Assembly (NCBI RefSeq): GCF_008107625.1
Contig: NZ_SDKK01000001.1
Location: 247,070-311,069 of the forward strand
Reading direction: 5' to 3'
Length of the DNA stretch: 64,000 bases
From: Zoogloea oleivorans
GTDB taxonomy: Bacteria > Pseudomonadota > Gammaproteobacteria > Burkholderiales > Rhodocyclaceae
Shown: positions 1-15,163 of the stretch, in pieces
How positions within the stretch are numbered: position 1 is the stretch's first letter
How the letters are laid out: each line of letters opens with the position of its first letter
Notes under the pieces: generated by a model
Told to the model about the DNA's origin: nothing
Database searches by the model: none
The model's input: only the letters and a program-made list of their open reading frames with translations
Position numbers and translations under genes: made by a program

Positions 1-708
1 GCGCAGGGCGTCGAGGTCGGTGTCCTGATCCATCTTGTCAAAGTAGTTGAAGCCGGCCATGAAACTGGCTTCGAACTCCTTGAGGGCGTCGTCCTTGCGG
101 CCCTGCTTGAGGCGCAGGATCGCCAGGTTGTAGGACACCAGGGACTGTTTCGGATCACGTGCCCGGGCTTCGAGGAGATCCTTTTCGGCGTCCTCGAGTT
201 TGCCCTGGGCCATCTTGGCGATGGCCAGCTTGAGCATTTCGTTGGCGGCGGCCTTGCTGCCGGCCTGTTCGGCGCTGGCGGCCTCGCCGGAGACGAGTTT
301 GGCCTGACTTTCTTCACGCAGCTTCTGGGTTTCGGCCTCGGAAGGCGGGATTCCCGAGTTGGTGGCCGGCGCGGCGACGGGGGCCGGTGCAGGAGCTGGT
401 GCAGGAGCTGGTGCAGGAGCCGCGGCTTCCTGGGTGATCGGCGGAGGTTCCGGGGCCTTGGCGGGCTTGGCGGTGAAGTAGTATCCGCCGCCTGCCAGAA
501 TCAGCACGGCGGCTGCGCCGGCTGCGATCAGGAGCGTCTTGCTGCCACCGCCACCGCCACCACCGCCACTGCCGCCCGGTGTTGCCACCGGATCCAGCAG
601 GGTGCCGCAAGCCGGGCACTTGAGTTCCTCGCCAGGGGCGCGCTCGAAAATTTCGCCGGAATTTGCCTTGTCGCAATCGCCCAGGGTCGGGCATTTGTAT
701 TTCGCCAT
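1..708 (-). CDS. Zinc-ribbon / TPR membrane protein (3' end outside window)
   Basis: The frame starts at the ATG at 706-708 and stays open to the window edge (236 codons), so the C-terminus is missing. The first 35 residues hold four cysteines (C6, C12, C31, C34) in a zinc-ribbon-like layout. A run of glycines follows, then one hydrophobic segment at about residues 58-78, a Pro/Ala-rich linker made of a short DNA repeat, and helical TPR-like sequence from about residue 150. It is the last visible gene of the minus-strand operon led by the tubulin-like gene, 60 bp downstream of it. The expected topology is a cytosolic zinc ribbon with an extracytoplasmic TPR. A scaffold role in the same complex is inference; no specific function is recognised. 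Confidence 0.7.
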   Translation of the reverse strand, partial: MAKYKCPTLGDCDKANSGEIFERAPGEELKCPACGTLLDPVATPGGSGGGGGGGGSKTLLIAAGAAAVLILAGGGYYFTAKPAKAPEPPPITQEAAAPAPAPAPAPAPAPVAAPATNSGIPPSEAETQKLREESQAKLVSGEAASAEQAGSKAAANEMLKLAIAKMAQGKLEDAEKDLLEARARDPKQSLVSYNLAILRLKQGRKDDALKEFEASFMAGFNYFDKMDQDTDLDALR

Positions 709-3799: not shown

Positions 3800-4663
3800 T
3801 TACTGGTGGGACAGCTTGATCTTCAGGAACAGGCCGGTGTCCGGGGTGCTGGTTTTCTTGACGACGTAGGAGGCGACCTGGGCACCGGTGCCGGTGGGGG
3901 CCGCGTCGTCGCTGAAGGCGATGCCCTTCGCCGCGTAGGCGGATGCGGCCGGCTTCGCGCCGTCCTTGACGCAGTTCGGCTCTTCGGCAAAGGCAATGCC
4001 CTTGGAGGCGTATTGGCGATCGCTGTTGGTAGTGACCGCGTCTGTCGGCGCCGTGTTGTCGGCCAGTGCCTGCGGTGCGCAGGCTGGGGCCGCGTCAGGC
4101 AGCACGGAAACGACATCGGGACGCATCTTTTTGACGCGCTCCGGCATGCCCGCCTGGATGGGGGTCGGCGAGACATAGACCAGCAACTGTTCGGTGCCGG
4201 GCTGCTGATCGAATTCGAACGAGCCCTGGCTGGGCAGAAAGACGACGCCCATTGCGTTGACGAAGTTGTCACCCCCCGGCTGGGGATAGAGCTGGACGAT
4301 CTTGCCGCTGGGGTCTTCGTTGAGGATGTAGATATAGGACGGGCGATTGACTTTCACACCGAGCTGGAAACGTTCGCCGGTCTTGAACTTGCGGCTGGAG
4401 AGCACATCGCGGGAAGTGCCATCGGGGCTTTTCAGGCGAATGAAATAGCTCGCGCCGATGTTCGCCGGCTTTTTGTGGGCGACAGTCTTGGTGGCTTTCT
4501 TGATGCTTTCCGGTGCGCTCGCGACTTTGGCCTTTTCGGCGGTCGAGACGGCGATGACGGAGTCGTCTTCGCCGAAAAACAGGGATTTGGCACTGTAGCT
4601 CTCTTCGGCGCAGACACCGCCGGCCAGCAGGAAAAAGGATAAGGCGGTCAGCGTGGTTCGCAT
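3800..4663 (-). CDS. Exported DUF4384-domain protein
   Basis: A 287-residue protein with a signal peptide (about residues 1-19, predicted cut after VCA; no lipobox). The middle (about residues 80-180) has the DUF4384 pattern: a 'GERFQLGV' strand, 'YIYILNEDPSGKIVQLYPQ', then 'LPSQGSFEFD' and 'EQLLVYVSP'. DUF4384 domains often accompany caspase-like peptidases and Ser/Thr kinases; here the neighbour upstream is a caspase-like lipoprotein. The C-terminal third contains three short repeats around 'YA(S/A)KGIAF(A/S)' at roughly residues 220-265, an internal repeat of unknown meaning. It is probably periplasmic and part of the tubulin-like operon. Confidence 0.8.
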   Translation of the reverse strand: MRTTLTALSFFLLAGGVCAEESYSAKSLFFGEDDSVIAVSTAEKAKVASAPESIKKATKTVAHKKPANIGASYFIRLKSPDGTSRDVLSSRKFKTGERFQLGVKVNRPSYIYILNEDPSGKIVQLYPQPGGDNFVNAMGVVFLPSQGSFEFDQQPGTEQLLVYVSPTPIQAGMPERVKKMRPDVVSVLPDAAPACAPQALADNTAPTDAVTTNSDRQYASKGIAFAEEPNCVKDGAKPAASAYAAKGIAFSDDAAPTGTGAQVASYVVKKTSTPDTGLFLKIKLSHQ

Positions 4664-4714
4664 AATGGCGGGCTCCCGGGAAAAGATGAGGATGTGATTG
4701 GGGGTGTCAGTGGC

Positions 4715-6088
4715 TCAATCGTAGAGTGTGCTGGCGTCACCGGCGGGCAAGGGGGGATTCAGGCGTGGCAGTTGCTGGATGGGCACCGGGCCTTTCCAGT
4801 TTTGCGGCGGCGGAATCGTGCTGACCTTGTTGTAGGTGAATGTCTGGGCTGCGGCGAAGGCAGGTTCCAGGTGGCCTTTGTATTGCCGCAGGTATTCAAA
4901 GAAGGCCTGCGTGAAGAAGGAGCCCTGGAGCTTTTTGTCCGGCGATACGGGGCTTTGGAAGCTGCCACCGGCGGACGGGCCCCAGGAGAGTTCGCCGTCG
5001 CTGGTGGCCGTGATGACGGTGTAGCGGTTCGGGTCGATGGCCTGTTGTCCGGCGGCAGGGCGCTGGTCTTTGCCCCTGGCTTGCGCAGAGGAGGCCGGCC
5101 CGGATTCGTTGTTCATGAAAATGGCCTTCGAGGCATAGGCCTCTCCCGTCCACGCCTGCATCGAAATGCCGGAGCGTTCGGGCACGCCGCCGTTGGTCTT
5201 GAGAATGTAGCGGCTGCTCTCGTCGGCGATGCCTTTGAGGATTTCGCCGCTGTAGCAGGTGTCAATGATGACGCGGGTTTGCCGGGTCGGGATCTGGGCC
5301 AGTTCCTGTACCTTGGTATCGGACACCGAGGTCTCGTGCACCTTCAGCTGAAAGGCCGTGCCGTTGCCGGGCGTGCCGGTGTCGCCGGTGTCATAGGCTG
5401 CGATCGACATCTTGCGTGCGTCCTTGGCTCGCGGCGACGGAATCGGCTTGTTGCCATGGCTGGAGATGTAGATCAGCAGGCTGTCATCCGGCCCGATCTC
5501 GCGTTTCAGCCGTGCCAGGGCGGTTTCAATGTTGGCCTTGGTGGCCTGCGCACCGAGCAGTGTGGTGGTCTTGTAGCCGGCCTTCTCGGCTTCCTGCTTG
5601 ACGAGTCTGGCATCGTCCTCGCCCAGGATCGGCGTCAGCCTGTCGTCGCGAAAGGTGTTGATGCCGACGATCAGGGCGCGCTTCTCCGACTTGGCGGCGG
5701 TGCCGCGGCTGGTTTTGGTGAATTGACTCAGGGCCCGTCGGGCGTCGGCTTCCCAGCGTTTTTCCTTGATGTCTTCAGGGTAGAAGGGGGAGGTTGATTT
5801 GATCCCGATGATGGACTGCACGATGACGAAGGCTTTGTCGACTTCGTCCTCGTCCCGGTAGCTGCCGGTCAGGCGGATGCGACCGACGTTGTCGCGGGCG
5901 ATTTGTGCGCCTGGGAGGCCGTTACGCTTCAACTCGACCTTTATCTGTTCCACCAGGGATTCGGGAACCGTGTAGCCCTGGTAGGCGTTTTCAAAGCCAT
6001 GCAGGCTGCTGGCGGCGCAGGCGCTCAGAAGCAGCGGGCTCAGCAGAAGCAGGATGCGTTGCAAGAACTGGATTTTGATGAGGTGCAT
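4715..6088 (-). CDS. Caspase-like (peptidase C14) lipoprotein
   Basis: A 457-residue protein. The N-terminus is a lipoprotein signal with lipobox LSAC (C24). Residues ~42-105 look like a BON-type domain. A caspase fold follows from ~136 ('KRALIVGINTF'), with catalytic His in 'YISSHGN' (H211) and catalytic Cys in 'IIDTCYSG' (C278). Both dyad residues are present, so activity is plausible. Lipidation would place it in the periplasm or on the outer membrane, unlike cytosolic defence caspases. It sits 73 bp downstream of the glycine-zipper gene and 51 bp upstream of the DUF4384 gene in the same operon. The substrate is unknown; neighbouring exported proteins are candidates (inference). Confidence 0.88.
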   Translation of the reverse strand: MHLIKIQFLQRILLLLSPLLLSACAASSLHGFENAYQGYTVPESLVEQIKVELKRNGLPGAQIARDNVGRIRLTGSYRDEDEVDKAFVIVQSIIGIKSTSPFYPEDIKEKRWEADARRALSQFTKTSRGTAAKSEKRALIVGINTFRDDRLTPILGEDDARLVKQEAEKAGYKTTTLLGAQATKANIETALARLKREIGPDDSLLIYISSHGNKPIPSPRAKDARKMSIAAYDTGDTGTPGNGTAFQLKVHETSVSDTKVQELAQIPTRQTRVIIDTCYSGEILKGIADESSRYILKTNGGVPERSGISMQAWTGEAYASKAIFMNNESGPASSAQARGKDQRPAAGQQAIDPNRYTVITATSDGELSWGPSAGGSFQSPVSPDKKLQGSFFTQAFFEYLRQYKGHLEPAFAAAQTFTYNKVSTIPPPQNWKGPVPIQQLPRLNPPLPAGDASTLYD

Positions 6089-6161
6089 CGGGCTGCTTTC
6101 GCGGGATGTGAGCGGAGTCCGGAATGACCGCGGGAGCCATGTCCCGCGGCGTGTGGTGGGC

Positions 6162-6887
6162 TTACTGAACGGTCACGGTTTCCTTGACGGTGGAGACAGG
6201 CTTGCCGCCTGCGCTCACGCTGAATTCAAAGCGGTACTGGGTGTCGGCCTTGGCATCGGAGGGAATCGGCAGGCGGGCGGTGTCCTGATGTTCGCCGGGT
6301 TCCACGGTCCGTTCTTCTGAGTTCCTGCCGGTAAAGGTCAAGGCGGTTTCCTTGCCCTCCACAATGGCGAACAGTTTGCGCTCGATCACGATCGGGGTTT
6401 CTGCGCCGTTGGGCGTCAGCACGATGAAGGTGCTGACAATATCCATCGGTACGCCTGCCTTGATGGTGGTTGGCATTTCAATTTTGGTGGCTTGGGCCTT
6501 GATGCCTTCGGTCGGTTTGTATTTGGTGTCTTTCTTGACCTGGGCATAGGCCTTGGTGCGCTCGATTTTGGATTCCGGAATCCATGCCGGGTTTTTCTTG
6601 AAACAGGTATCGACTGCCGTGAAGTAGGCGGTTGCGAAGCCGGCAGCCCCACCTACCACGGCACCGATGGCCGCATTCTTGAGCGCGTCTTTCTTGTTGT
6701 TGGAAAAAAGGGCTGCACCCAGACCGGCCAGTACACCTGCACCGGCGCCCTTTGCAGTCAGCATGATTTGTTCTTCCTTGACGCAGGCATCCAGCTCCGT
6801 ATTGGCAGATTCCTGTGCGTGGGCTGCGGTGGACAGGCACAGCAGGGCGGCAATGGCTTTGGCGGCAATTTTTTGAGTGGTGTGCAT
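6162..6887 (-). CDS. Exported protein with glycine-zipper segment, first gene of the tubulin-caspase operon
   Basis: The ATG at 6885-6887 gives 241 residues with a clear signal peptide ending TAAHA. A Gly/Ala-rich hydrophobic stretch at about residues 45-85 ('GAGAGVLAGLGAALF', 'AAIGAVVGGAAGFATAY') resembles the glycine-zipper segments of outer-membrane-associated proteins. The C-terminal half is beta-rich with no domain I recognise. The frame is open further upstream, and a near-perfect Shine-Dalgarno lies at 7062-7068 in that extension, but the signal peptide argues for the start given. It is the first gene downstream of the c-di-GMP riboswitch and probably heads the five-gene operon. Confidence 0.7.
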   Translation of the reverse strand: MHTTQKIAAKAIAALLCLSTAAHAQESANTELDACVKEEQIMLTAKGAGAGVLAGLGAALFSNNKKDALKNAAIGAVVGGAAGFATAYFTAVDTCFKKNPAWIPESKIERTKAYAQVKKDTKYKPTEGIKAQATKIEMPTTIKAGVPMDIVSTFIVLTPNGAETPIVIERKLFAIVEGKETALTFTGRNSEERTVEPGEHQDTARLPIPSDAKADTQYRFEFSVSAGGKPVSTVKETVTVQ

Positions 6888-7110
6888 TTTGCGAATGTAC
6901 GTGGTTGTCGTAATGCGGATTGGCTGTACGCGGCTGTGGCCTGCAGGCGTGGCGCTGGCGGGCGGGTATTCGGGCAAGGCAGTGAGGCGCCGCAATGCAT
7001 GGGCATCAAGCGGCGTGGCGGGCCTGGTGCCGTGAGCGGTCTGGTGCAGAAGAATTTTGCGCCTCCTTCTTTATTGACGAGTCGTTATGCTCATCAAAGG
7101 AAACGCTGAA

Positions 7111-7148
7111 CCGGGATGCAGGTGAATAAGAAACTGACTGCAACCCGG
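7111..7148 (-). promoter_or_regulatory. Alternative hairpin overlapping riboswitch 3' end (candidate expression platform)
   Basis: On the minus strand CCGGG-T-TGCAG pairs with CTGCA-T-CCCGG (one T:T mismatch) across a 16-nt loop. The 5' arm is also the 3' conserved segment of the GEMM-I aptamer, so the two folds should be mutually exclusive. No U-run follows, so it does not look like a standard intrinsic terminator. Confidence 0.5.
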
Positions 7149-7222
7149 CTGCCCGCCAATAAGAAAGAGGGGCCCGTGGCTTTGCGTCCTACAGTCACCC
7201 ATAGTTTGCCTTTGAATTGTTA
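7138..7222 (-). ncRNA. Cyclic-di-GMP class I riboswitch (GEMM-I)
   Basis: Read on the minus strand the conserved GEMM-I blocks occur in order. First is AAAGGCAAAC, then a 6-bp stem CTATGG/CTGTAG (two G-U pairs) capped by a GTGA GNRA tetraloop, then the hallmark GACGCAAAGCCACGGG. A second variable stem follows, closed by GCCC/GGGC, and last the receptor-side segment GCAGCCGGGTTGC. The tetraloop, the ACGCAAAGCC core and the CCGGGTT segment are the diagnostic parts. It lies about 250 nt upstream of the glycine-zipper gene and points into the tubulin-caspase operon. Whether ligand turns expression on or off cannot be read from sequence. Confidence 0.88.
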
Positions 7223-7304
7223 CAAACCTTATCACAAGCCAATGCGAGAGCGGTAACTTCGTGGCTGTTCTTGTGATGGGGTTGGCGCGTGCTCTCCCGC
7301 GGCA

Positions 7305-7811
7305 TCAAAAGGCCCCGATCGCCAGGCCGGTGGCGAAGGCCGCGCCAAGCTCTTCGCCCTTGGTCAGCTCGGTGGAGGCAACGCTTTTGGGGGCGAGGAT
7401 TTCTTCGGGTGTCTGGGCGTGGGTGCACACGATCAGGGGCGGGGTGATTTCGCGCAGGCGCCAGCCCGTGGCAATGCGGGCAATCTGGCGGGCCGCGTTG
7501 CTGCCGTCGCTGCCGGCGCAGACGATGCTGGCGTAGGGGCGGCCGTTGAGTTGATCGAGTGCCGCGTAATAGCTGCGGTCGAAGAAGTCCTTCATCAGTC
7601 CGGCAATGGCCGCCAGGTTTTCAGGGGTGGCGAAGACGTAGCCGTCGGCGGTCAGCAAGTCCTCCGGCCCCGCCTCGACGGCCCGCAGCAGGCGAACGCG
7701 CACATCCGGCTCGCAGGCCGCGCCACGGGCGACGGCGTGGATCATCTGTTCAGTGGCGCCGGTCCATGAGTGGTAGACCAGCAGGAGGGTCTTGCGGGCG
7801 GCGTCGGGCAT
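7305..7811 (-). CDS. Flavodoxin-like / NAD(P)H-dependent FMN-binding protein
   Basis: A 168-residue protein of the flavodoxin-like fold. The N-terminal strand 'KTLLLVYHSWTGATEQM' carries the phosphate-binding loop (SWTGAT). The 'FATPENLAAIAGLMKDFFDR' and 'VCAGSDGSNAARQ' segments match the FMN-contacting loops of NAD(P)H:quinone oxidoreductase and flavodoxin-like proteins. The start is the ATG at 7809-7811. It is transcribed away from the J-domain gene and lies upstream of the c-di-GMP riboswitch on the same strand. Redox partner and substrate are not evident. Confidence 0.75.
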   Translation of the reverse strand: MPDAARKTLLLVYHSWTGATEQMIHAVARGAACEPDVRVRLLRAVEAGPEDLLTADGYVFATPENLAAIAGLMKDFFDRSYYAALDQLNGRPYASIVCAGSDGSNAARQIARIATGWRLREITPPLIVCTHAQTPEEILAPKSVASTELTKGEELGAAFATGLAIGAF

Positions 7812-13748: not shown

Positions 13749-13867
13749 GCGGGGCGCTGTTCAAGGCAGGCATTTGATTCGGGCGGTATGTGCAGCACGC
13801 TGGCAAAAGTGCTTATATACTCGCCCGGTCTTGTGCCTCCGTCATTTTTCAGCCCTCCGTCCGTCCC

Positions 13868-15163
13868 ATGCAAGAAGCCGAAGAACTTCCCGCCCAGCTC
13901 GGCACCGCTCTGCCTAGCGTTGAACGCCTGTTCGATCACCTCGCGGACGCGGTCTATCTGATCGATCCTGATACGTCGTGCATCGTGTGGGGCAACCGAA
14001 AAGCATGGGAATCCCTGGGCCTCAGCCGTGACGATGTCCTTGACCACAGCGTGCTGAGTCTGCAGAAAGACGTGCACGGCATGCCCCAGTGGGCGCAAAT
14101 CGCTGGCGCCATTCGCGGCAGTGATTGTTTCCGCTTCATCGGTCGGCACCGTCACCAGCAAGGGCATGAGATCGAGGTGGAAGTGAACACCACCCACTTC
14201 ACGCTCGACGGACGCGAGTACTTCCTGTCGGTAGCCCGCGACATCACCCGGCGCGTGGCGCAGGAGGCTGATGCCCAGTGGCGGGAGAAGCAGCTCTGGT
14301 TTGCCCTGAACGAAGCCTGCGACGGCCTGTGGGACTGGGAAGTGTCGACCGGGGCGCTGTTTTTCAGCCCGCAATTGAAGCGCATGCTGGGCTACGGCCC
14401 GGACGAGATGGCGCCGGTACTCGAAACCTGGAGCCACAATGTGCACCCCGAGGATGTCCAGCGGGTCATGGCCGCGCTGCAAGCGCATATGCAGGGCAAA
14501 TGCTTCCGTTACGAAGCCGAGTACCGCATCCGCAACCGCGACGGCCATTACCTGTGGGTGCATGACCGGGGACGCGTCTGCGATCACGACGCCGATGGCC
14601 AGCCCCGGCGGGTGGTCGGCATGGTGCAGGACATCAGCGCGCGCAAGACGCTGGAACTACAACTGCAGGAACTGGCCTCCAGCGACATGCTGACCGGCCT
14701 GGCCAATCGCCGTCAGGGAACCGACTTCCTGAAGGCGCAGGTCGAGTTGTGCCAGCGGCTTGGCCTGCCCCTCGGACTGGCCTTCATCGACATCGACAAC
14801 TTCAAGGCCATCAACGATCTGCGCGGGCATCTCGTCGGTGACAAGGTGATCCAGCGGGTGGGGCAGGTGGTGAAAGACGGAGTACGTGGCTCGGACCTGG
14901 TGTGCCGCTGGGGCGGCGAGGAATTCATCGTGATCGCCCCCAATACCGGCATCGAACCCATGGGGCTGGTCGCCGAGAAACTGCGCCTGGCTGTGATGCG
15001 CGAACTCGCCAGCCATGTCCCGCCGGTCACCATCAGCGTGGGCGTTGCCTCGGCCGCAGGACTCTCGATGGATATCCCGTCACTCCTGGAGGGCGCCGAT
15101 GCCGCCCTCTACAAGGCCAAGCAGGGCGGTCGCAACCGGGTGGCACTGGCCGATCAGCGCTAA
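13868..15163 (+). CDS. PAS-PAS-GGDEF diguanylate cyclase
   Basis: The ATG at 13868 gives 431 residues; no strong RBS is visible. A first PAS covers about residues 20-130 and a second about 140-260 ('WFALNEACDGLWDWEVSTG' and 'YRIRNRDGHYLWVHDRGR' are typical PAS core and PAC). The GGDEF domain begins near 275 and has the active-site signature RWGGEEF. An RxxD inhibitory site (RGSD) sits five residues before it, so product inhibition is likely. There is no EAL domain or membrane segment, so it should be cytosolic. It is the only c-di-GMP enzyme in the window, some 7 kb from the GEMM-I riboswitch. Confidence 0.9.
   Translation: MQEAEELPAQLGTALPSVERLFDHLADAVYLIDPDTSCIVWGNRKAWESLGLSRDDVLDHSVLSLQKDVHGMPQWAQIAGAIRGSDCFRFIGRHRHQQGHEIEVEVNTTHFTLDGREYFLSVARDITRRVAQEADAQWREKQLWFALNEACDGLWDWEVSTGALFFSPQLKRMLGYGPDEMAPVLETWSHNVHPEDVQRVMAALQAHMQGKCFRYEAEYRIRNRDGHYLWVHDRGRVCDHDADGQPRRVVGMVQDISARKTLELQLQELASSDMLTGLANRRQGTDFLKAQVELCQRLGLPLGLAFIDIDNFKAINDLRGHLVGDKVIQRVGQVVKDGVRGSDLVCRWGGEEFIVIAPNTGIEPMGLVAEKLRLAVMRELASHVPPVTISVGVASAAGLSMDIPSLLEGADAALYKAKQGGRNRVALADQR

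Follow-up and report, generated by a model that had tools for sequence, protein, structure and literature searches.

A cyclic di-GMP-I riboswitch aptamer in front of a conserved five-gene tubulin-caspase operon in Zoogloea

We analysed a stretch of the Zoogloea oleivorans genome of 64 kilobases (kb; contig NZ_SDKK01000001.1, positions 247,070 to 311,069; hereafter, the window), which carries on its minus strand a cyclic di-GMP (c-di-GMP)-I, or GEMM-I, riboswitch aptamer followed by five genes. These encode an exported glycine-zipper protein, a C14 caspase-like lipoprotein, an exported DUF4384 protein, an FtsZ/tubulin-like GTPase of the Tubulin_2 family and a zinc-ribbon, one-transmembrane (TM), TPR-like protein (Table 1). 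The whole is a new form of the Tubulin_2-type operon, preceded by a riboswitch of a known class. In Paraburkholderia and Caballeronia, the operon appears to be under the flagellar sigma factor FliA, to judge from its upstream sequences, and the caspase and the DUF4384 protein share a short lysine-containing motif. We regard as evenly balanced the reading in which the five genes would form an envelope tubulin-caspase machine, programmed by c-di-GMP or FliA, whose Lys-directed caspase most likely acts on the shared motif. To our knowledge, no experiment has yet revealed what the Tubulin_2/FtsZ-like proteins of the 2010 description do, and substrates are known for few of the caspases that bacteria export. 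Both questions become testable with this operon, through its proposed regulation by c-di-GMP and by the flagellar system and through a short shared motif predicting exact cleavage or docking sites.

A first-pass annotation, made by a model from the sequence alone, had described a GEMM-I aptamer with its hallmarks leading these minus-strand genes, and covariance searches bear this out. RF03167 is the one match at gathering score in the window (cmscan, 62.4 bits against a cut-off of 59, E 2.4e-12), and RF01051 scores 59.3 bits at 7135-7219(-) (cut-off 35). When the 150 best candidates of the 5.68-Mb genome were scored, each family matched once, and neither matched in any of 14 control genomes. 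All the hallmarks named are present, the P2 stem having six base pairs (bp) and a GUGA cap. The ligand-core letters are GGCAAAC and GACGCAAA, i.e., the RF01051 consensus, and we take them to be ligand contacts (G20 and A47 in Vc2). The two Rfam consensuses part at one A/G position (RF01051, GACGCAAA; RF03167, GACGCGAA), and the window aptamer carries the canonical A there and not the G of RF03167 (GACGC[G]AA). Because the RF01051 core letters are kept, the family name 'GGC' should not be read as an altered ligand core; by its letters, the core is of the ordinary c-di-GMP-I type, although the best-scoring family is 'GGC'. Apart from this A, the element is like other c-di-GMP-I riboswitches (RF01051; RF03167) in aptamer sequence and structure, and differs from them in the genes that it would control.

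The five genes behind the leader are a real conserved unit. A tubulin profile search, with an alignment of three tubulins and two seed peptides against the contigs of 84,980 species, gave 12 loci, and a plasmid search gave one further full-length copy (L010). The order of the five genes, as first described for the window, is kept in 10 other loci (L010, L017, L018 and L020-L026; tblastn), including two partial cases: the zinc-ribbon match of L024 is incomplete, and the tubulin match of L026 consists of two overlapping pieces. The species label of L025 (a Chitinophaga metagenome-assembled genome) is doubtful. Loci from the same genome (L011/L017, L024/L065 and L022/L066) or probably from the same strain (L010/L073, identical site) were merged in the count of distinct loci with a FliA-type site given below. 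The tubulin of Zoogloea ramigera is 88% identical to that of the window. Among the flanking open reading frames (ORFs) of at least 120 amino acids (aa) in the 10 loci, close matches were found only between two Janthinobacterium loci, the rest being five pairs at 31-33% identity.

All five genes lie on the minus strand, with gaps of 73, 51, 19 and 60 bases. The C14, DUF4384 and Tubulin_2 identities proposed in the annotation were confirmed by Pfam; the zinc-ribbon and TPR labels of gene 5 were given by inspection (two CxnC knuckles and one TM stretch), without Pfam confirmation, its first 179 residues matching DUF4799 at 0.015 only. The lipobox, the signal peptides and the TM topology of gene 5 were likewise assigned by inspection only. 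The glycine-zipper protein had no Pfam match at 0.001 and a weak NCBIfam YiaD-type match (2e-5), well under the cut-off of that model; the ATG of its gene has no obvious ribosome-binding site by inspection.

The partners encoded in FtsZl1 operons are vWA proteins, Ser/Thr kinases and OmpA-like proteins, and an envelope or membrane-remodelling role was predicted for the FtsZl1 proteins (Makarova and Koonin 2010, PMC2875224), with which Tubulin_2 has been equated (PMC9871819). The present operon is like them in its PF13809 GTPase, its multigene organisation and its exported or membrane partners, but it has instead a C14 caspase lipoprotein and a DUF4384 protein, with no vWA or kinase Pfam match in the operon proteins scanned (gene 5: first 179 residues), and riboswitch or FliA control would be a feature of its own. 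The main text of PMC2875224 does not contain the word 'caspase', and no description of this tubulin-caspase operon was found in the open-access literature, among the matches listed, in agreement with the annotation, which knew of no such system. A distant operon (L092, tubulin 34% identical) encodes, on one strand, OmpA, DUF4384 and Tubulin_2 proteins, a pair of zinc-ribbon-like ones, one exported C14-DUF4384 protein and one CHAT protein. Since it has all three, the association of tubulin, caspase and DUF4384 seems older than the Zoogloea copy. The CHAT-domain protein (L092:1617-4718(-), PF12770, 2.4e-42) is a second caspase-superfamily protease in this distant operon.

The caspase-like lipoprotein keeps its His-Cys dyad: His211, Cys278, Asp276 and the lipobox Cys24 do not vary among the 10 sequences aligned. 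In a separate pattern search, the lipobox of L069 was missed. We take the Asp two residues before the catalytic Cys (D276) as a pointer to cleavage after Arg or Lys, suggestive only. The best PDB matches of the structure model are GSU0716, metacaspases, MALT1 and caspases, and in the AlphaFold model the N-terminus forms an alpha-beta-beta-alpha domain. C14B proteases cleave behind basic residues, and activation of metazoan caspases proceeds by a cut between p20 and p10 (PMC6426788). With the C14B orthocaspases and metacaspases of that paper, the protein shares the p20 fold, the His-Cys dyad, the Asp at Cys-2 and a low-confidence stretch after the Cys, and DUF4384 also occurs there fused to C14 domains. 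It differs from them in being a tubulin-linked lipoprotein with an extra N-terminal domain and in having a partner that carries the same motif in triplicate.

This motif, in the strict form [YF][AST][ASTG]K[GAS][ILV]x[FYM], was searched in six-frame, stop-to-stop ORFs of at least 100 aa. It has four matches in the 68,173 aa of window ORFs, one in the caspase and three in the DUF4384 protein, and none outside the caspase and DUF4384 genes in 11 other loci. Three copies of a loose pattern were reached by none of 20,000 shuffled DUF4384 proteins. The distance from the Cys to the motif Lys is 43 residues in all 10 aligned caspases and in nine of nine Paraburkholderia copies, three of these being repeats of loci already used; K321 and I323 are invariant in the 10 aligned caspases, and the motif Tyr is replaced by Phe in some Paraburkholderia copies. 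In a control drawn from 60 genomes, 30 DUF4384 loci were collected, several of them cut by locus ends, and 29 were read in the frame of the match (L145 was left out). The strict motif is present in both operon DUF4384 proteins and in 0 of the 27 other DUF4384 ORFs, with one loose match (L151), and was therefore rejected as a general DUF4384 trait. L092 has variants of it: the DUF4384 protein carries FAGKDLVF and the caspase, close to its C-terminus and as judged by eye, FASKDLVA.

We consider that a C14B-type caspase with basic P1 specificity most likely acts on the [YF]xxK[GAS] motif: it would cut its own p20/p10 linker, leading to activation, and three sites in the tails of its DUF4384 partner, leading to substrate processing. 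A serious, if tentative, alternative is that the motif of both proteins docks, as an added beta-strand or a short linear motif, onto a common periplasmic scaffold, for which the glycine-zipper protein and the TPR-like region of the gene 5 product are the candidates. In favour of docking, hydrophobic residues alternate around the Lys, and the motif sits in stretches of low predicted local distance difference test (pLDDT) score in the models. In favour of cleavage, the Lys is invariant and stands next to an intact His-Cys dyad, in a protein of a family specific for basic residues (PMC6426788), and its distance to the Cys is fixed at 43 residues, in the p20-p10 region where caspases are cut. The motif-bearing regions have a pLDDT below 50 (caspase 278-366; DUF4384 protein 1-64 and 190-262; AlphaFold), consistent with their being flexible.

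Several points weigh against cleavage or weaken the motif evidence. Conservation covers at least eight residues and extends to both sides of the Lys, which is broad for a site of proteolysis. The motif of the L092 caspase is near the C-terminus and not in the p20/p10 linker, and is off the pattern used; this position favours docking. The strict pattern is also missed by YAAKGIFA, in the caspase of Z. ramigera, and by YNAKSLFF, copy 1 in the DUF4384 protein of L018. One loose copy occurred in 333 of 20,000 shuffled caspases and is hence not very improbable. Finally, the AlphaFold models, built on shallow alignments, have mean pLDDT values of 58 and 55, a low confidence at which low pLDDT is weak evidence of disorder.

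On the regulatory side, an orthologous aptamer is found at the same place in Z. ramigera (L011:10925-11004(-), 64.6 bits). The aptamer core and a hairpin 3' of it are conserved in both Zoogloea species while the DNA between has diverged. The 5' arm and 3' flank of the hairpin are identical in the two, and the Z. ramigera 3' arm (GGAAGCGC) has one pair-preserving change, all pairs being kept. The 23-base 5' part of the hairpin (at most three mismatches) is, among the loci compared, confined to the two Zoogloea operon leaders; given this restriction, the hairpin is the likeliest expression platform of the riboswitch, and perhaps serves as such. A minus-strand intrinsic terminator between the aptamer and the gene was dropped as a candidate, the terminator scan having found none. 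Nor was a sigma-70-like promoter found in 6700-7330, which spans the aptamer-to-gene stretch, or upstream of the aptamer, so that the promoter between riboswitch and first gene that the annotation had allowed for did not turn up.

At the Rfam cut-off, no aptamer was found in nine of nine non-Zoogloea leaders (L010, L018 and L020-L026). The leader counts leave out L016, L019 and L015/L027, which are fragments or lack the upstream region, and the Rfam leader scans did not include L067-L072. With the 150 best candidates scored in each, six non-Zoogloea operon genomes searched whole had no RF01051 match at E <= 0.001, while the Z. ramigera genome had five. A lax search of L025, the closest non-Zoogloea leader, gave chance-level matches to other RNA families only, and the distant operon L092 had no Rfam match. 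From these comparisons, the riboswitch looks like a lineage-specific addition in Zoogloea, and general c-di-GMP control of the tubulin-caspase system was rejected because the aptamer is missing from the nine other leaders. The annotation had expected the same leader before homologous clusters; its presence in Z. ramigera only comes close to overturning this expectation, and the proposed c-di-GMP control would apply to the Zoogloea leaders, the wider theme seeming to be a motile/sessile programme marked by FliA-type promoters.

The restriction of the leader to one lineage also fits a chance capture of the riboswitch in front of a housekeeping-regulated operon, where an internal promoter would drive the genes and c-di-GMP would be irrelevant. 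So do the 168 nucleotides (nt; window) and 261 nt (Z. ramigera) of divergent sequence between hairpin and start codon. In Vibrio cholerae, c-di-GMP control of gbpA was found not to depend on the Vc1 element of that gene (PMC4545359), so the presence of a GEMM-I element does not imply that it acts. Against this, the aptamer core and the following hairpin are kept in two species despite the diverged intervening DNA, and the aptamer-to-gene stretch yielded no sigma-70-like promoter, which makes chance capture improbable in our view. In both Zoogloea leaders, the frame of gene 1 is free of stops between the hairpin and the first ATG (6888-7055(-) in the window); both stretches are multiples of three in length, and the codon-position GC of the run has no clear coding look.

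In Paraburkholderia and Caballeronia, a FliA-type site like TAAAGTTN-N11-GCCGANAN lies upstream of the operon, about 150-190 nt ahead of gene 1; in L026, its second box reads GTCGATAC. The site shares its boxes and spacing with the consensus TAAAGTT-N12-GCCGA of class III flagellar promoters, which are those of FliA (sigma-28); here the gene set controlled would be the tubulin-caspase operon. L010, L024 and L026, three of 11 upstream regions, score 14/16, which was reached by 0 of 200 shuffles. The other eight regions, the window included, score 8-10, and the best site of the window (10/16), matched by 43.5% of shuffles, does not stand out as a sigma-28 site. In a search of 144 genomes, seven of nine Paraburkholderia regions score 13-15/16. 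When duplicates are merged, a site with the 11-nt spacer is present in eight of 10 distinct Paraburkholderia/Caballeronia loci. Mean pairwise identity among these eight sites is 0.92 in the -35 box and 0.80 in the -10 box, 0.24 in the spacer and 0.34 and 0.30 in the flanks. As the boxes are conserved while spacer and flanks are near random, this is a promoter footprint and not general similarity. Random windows of 400 nt were drawn from ten such loci; 3 of 942 reach 13 and none reaches 14 (58 of 1000 were dropped for overlap with the operon's own site). The pattern is also found before a flagellin gene (L088, Paraburkholderia genome G496), an LPP20-FlgT pair (L077) and the gene of a methyl-accepting chemotaxis protein receptor (L090).

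Flagellar control of the operon is made less certain by the lack of the site in two of the 10 loci (L066 and L070) and in the Massilia, Duganella and Janthinobacterium copies. Genome-wide, the FliA pattern is hardly enriched, with 18 matches in five genomes versus 10 for the reversed control (1-5 versus 0-4 per genome), and only 3 of 15 off-operon matches precede recognisable flagellar or chemotaxis genes. The distant operon L092 has a best score of 10/16. A second swapped family, of small secreted proteins, is preceded by GEMM-I in Zoogloea and by a FliA-type site in one Paraburkholderia genome (Table 1); across the two genera, blastp gives 39% identity over 113 aa (85.9 bits), and there is no Pfam match in L064 or L083, the members scanned. 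The two cases are few, and point the same way: Zoogloea would rely on the c-di-GMP riboswitch and Paraburkholderia, in its place, on the flagellar sigma factor.

With a c-di-GMP riboswitch in Zoogloea and FliA-type promoters in Paraburkholderia/Caballeronia, the operon probably belongs to the motile/sessile switch, by which cells either swim or settle. In the mechanism that we propose, where ligand binding, membrane topology, physical linkage, cleavage and cellular role are inferred from sequence, the riboswitch would read cellular c-di-GMP in Zoogloea and set the expression of the operon, perhaps via the hairpin, while in Paraburkholderia/Caballeronia the operon would be placed under FliA. 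The cytosolic Tubulin_2 GTPase would be linked, probably via the one-TM zinc-ribbon protein, to exported partners, namely the DUF4384 protein, the outer-membrane caspase lipoprotein and the glycine-zipper protein. The part of the tubulin may be membrane remodelling, after the role predicted for FtsZl1. Possible, though doubtful, is the stronger proposal of a caspase cascade outside the cytoplasm that is driven or positioned by a bacterial tubulin, and in which a motile/sessile-programmed outer-membrane lipoprotein caspase would cut its own linker and three repeats of its partner and so remodel the envelope.

The distribution of the tubulin is patchy: with the own genome included, it was found in 6 of 120 relatives (two of the close type, one fragment and three at 29-34% identity) and in 3 of 399 genomes of the order. 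This spread, the different neighbours of the block from locus to locus, the occurrence of caspase-like proteases in defence systems and a weak PADLOC caspase match (3.7e-6) would suit an anti-phage or suicide system that fires the caspase on infection, c-di-GMP control being incidental, but we hold this to be very unlikely, since PADLOC has no match for the other four proteins (gene 5: 179 residues), the lipobox probably takes the caspase out of the cytosol, and FliA and riboswitch control are ill-suited to a defence trigger. With one weak match among the five proteins (gene 5 in part), a known anti-phage system was discarded. Three tubulin relatives (L012-L014, 27-34% identity) had no tblastn match to the other four operon proteins; in L012, a C14-looking ORF was seen by eye at the locus edge, about 7 kb from the tubulin. 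A genome of the same genus (G021) shows a tubulin fragment only (L015:10583-11164, the same as L027); the part matched contains an in-frame TGA, and two tRNA genes lie about 1.6 kb away.

Table 1. Positions of the aptamer, hairpin, operon genes, shared motifs and small secreted protein family (window coordinates unless a locus is named)
Feature	Position	Strand	Support or remark
c-di-GMP-I (GEMM-I) riboswitch aptamer	7135..7219	-	RF03167 62.4 bits, RF01051 59.3 bits
Conserved hairpin 3' of aptamer, candidate expression platform	7059..7106	-	8-bp GCGTTTCC / GGAGGCGC, then AAAATTCTTCT
Gene 1, exported glycine-zipper protein, 241 aa	6162..6887	-	orthologues in 10 loci
Gene 2, C14 caspase-like lipoprotein, 457 aa	4715..6088	-	PF00656 Peptidase_C14 1.4e-14; lipobox by inspection
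Gene 3, exported DUF4384 protein, 287 aa	3800..4663	-	PF14326 5.4e-16
Gene 4, FtsZ/tubulin-like GTPase (Tubulin_2), 1003 aa	769..3780	-	PF13809 3.1e-57; GGTGSG loop
Gene 5, zinc-ribbon, one-TM, TPR-like protein, 5' part	1..708	-	runs past window end and contains a masked run of N; labels by inspection
Motif YASKAIFM (K321), caspase	5114..5137	-	43 residues past Cys278
Motif copy 1 YSAKSLFF (K26), DUF4384 protein	4574..4597	-	
Motif copy 2 YASKGIAF (K221), DUF4384 protein	3989..4012	-	
Motif copy 3 YAAKGIAF (K246), DUF4384 protein	3914..3937	-	
Small secreted protein family, Zoogloea	L064:1723-2148, L119:202-627		GEMM-I
Small secreted protein family, Paraburkholderia	L083:997-1410		FliA-type site

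A PAS-GGDEF cyclase had been noted near the operon, and the gene is indeed at 13790-15163, 6.6 kb from the aptamer. In the 18 operon and tubulin loci, however, no tblastn match was found for it (E <= 1e-4) or for the flavodoxin-like, DnaJ-like, POR, PyrD-like, antiporter and HD-GYP-like neighbours of the window, so that the closeness of PAS-GGDEF is not evidence for a c-di-GMP link, and both PAS-GGDEF and HD-GYP were ruled out as partners. The HD-GYP-like gene, which by eye encodes a phosphodiesterase, lies outside the window (L003:9371-10627(+)), about 1.9 kb past the end of the zinc-ribbon ORF, and has no match in the other operon loci.

Elsewhere in the genus, RF03167 is found at E <= 0.001 in 17 of 23 genomes and above the cut-off in nine, and these aptamers precede genes for a GspH-type pilin, a dynamin-like GTPase, a pentapeptide protein and others. 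In two Zoogloea genomes, GEMM-I stands before a GTPase gene, with a dynamin-type Pfam match in L120 and a similar protein by eye in L121. In Z. ramigera, a second GEMM-I aptamer is divergently placed 240 nt from the operon's own (L011:11245-11329(+)) and points at a pentapeptide-repeat gene (L011:11713-12339). In this aptamer, an A replaces the first G of GGCAAAC (AAAAGCAAAC), a position that presumably corresponds to G20. By its letters, the substitution looks like the G20A change of cyclic GMP-AMP-type switches (PMC6274999).

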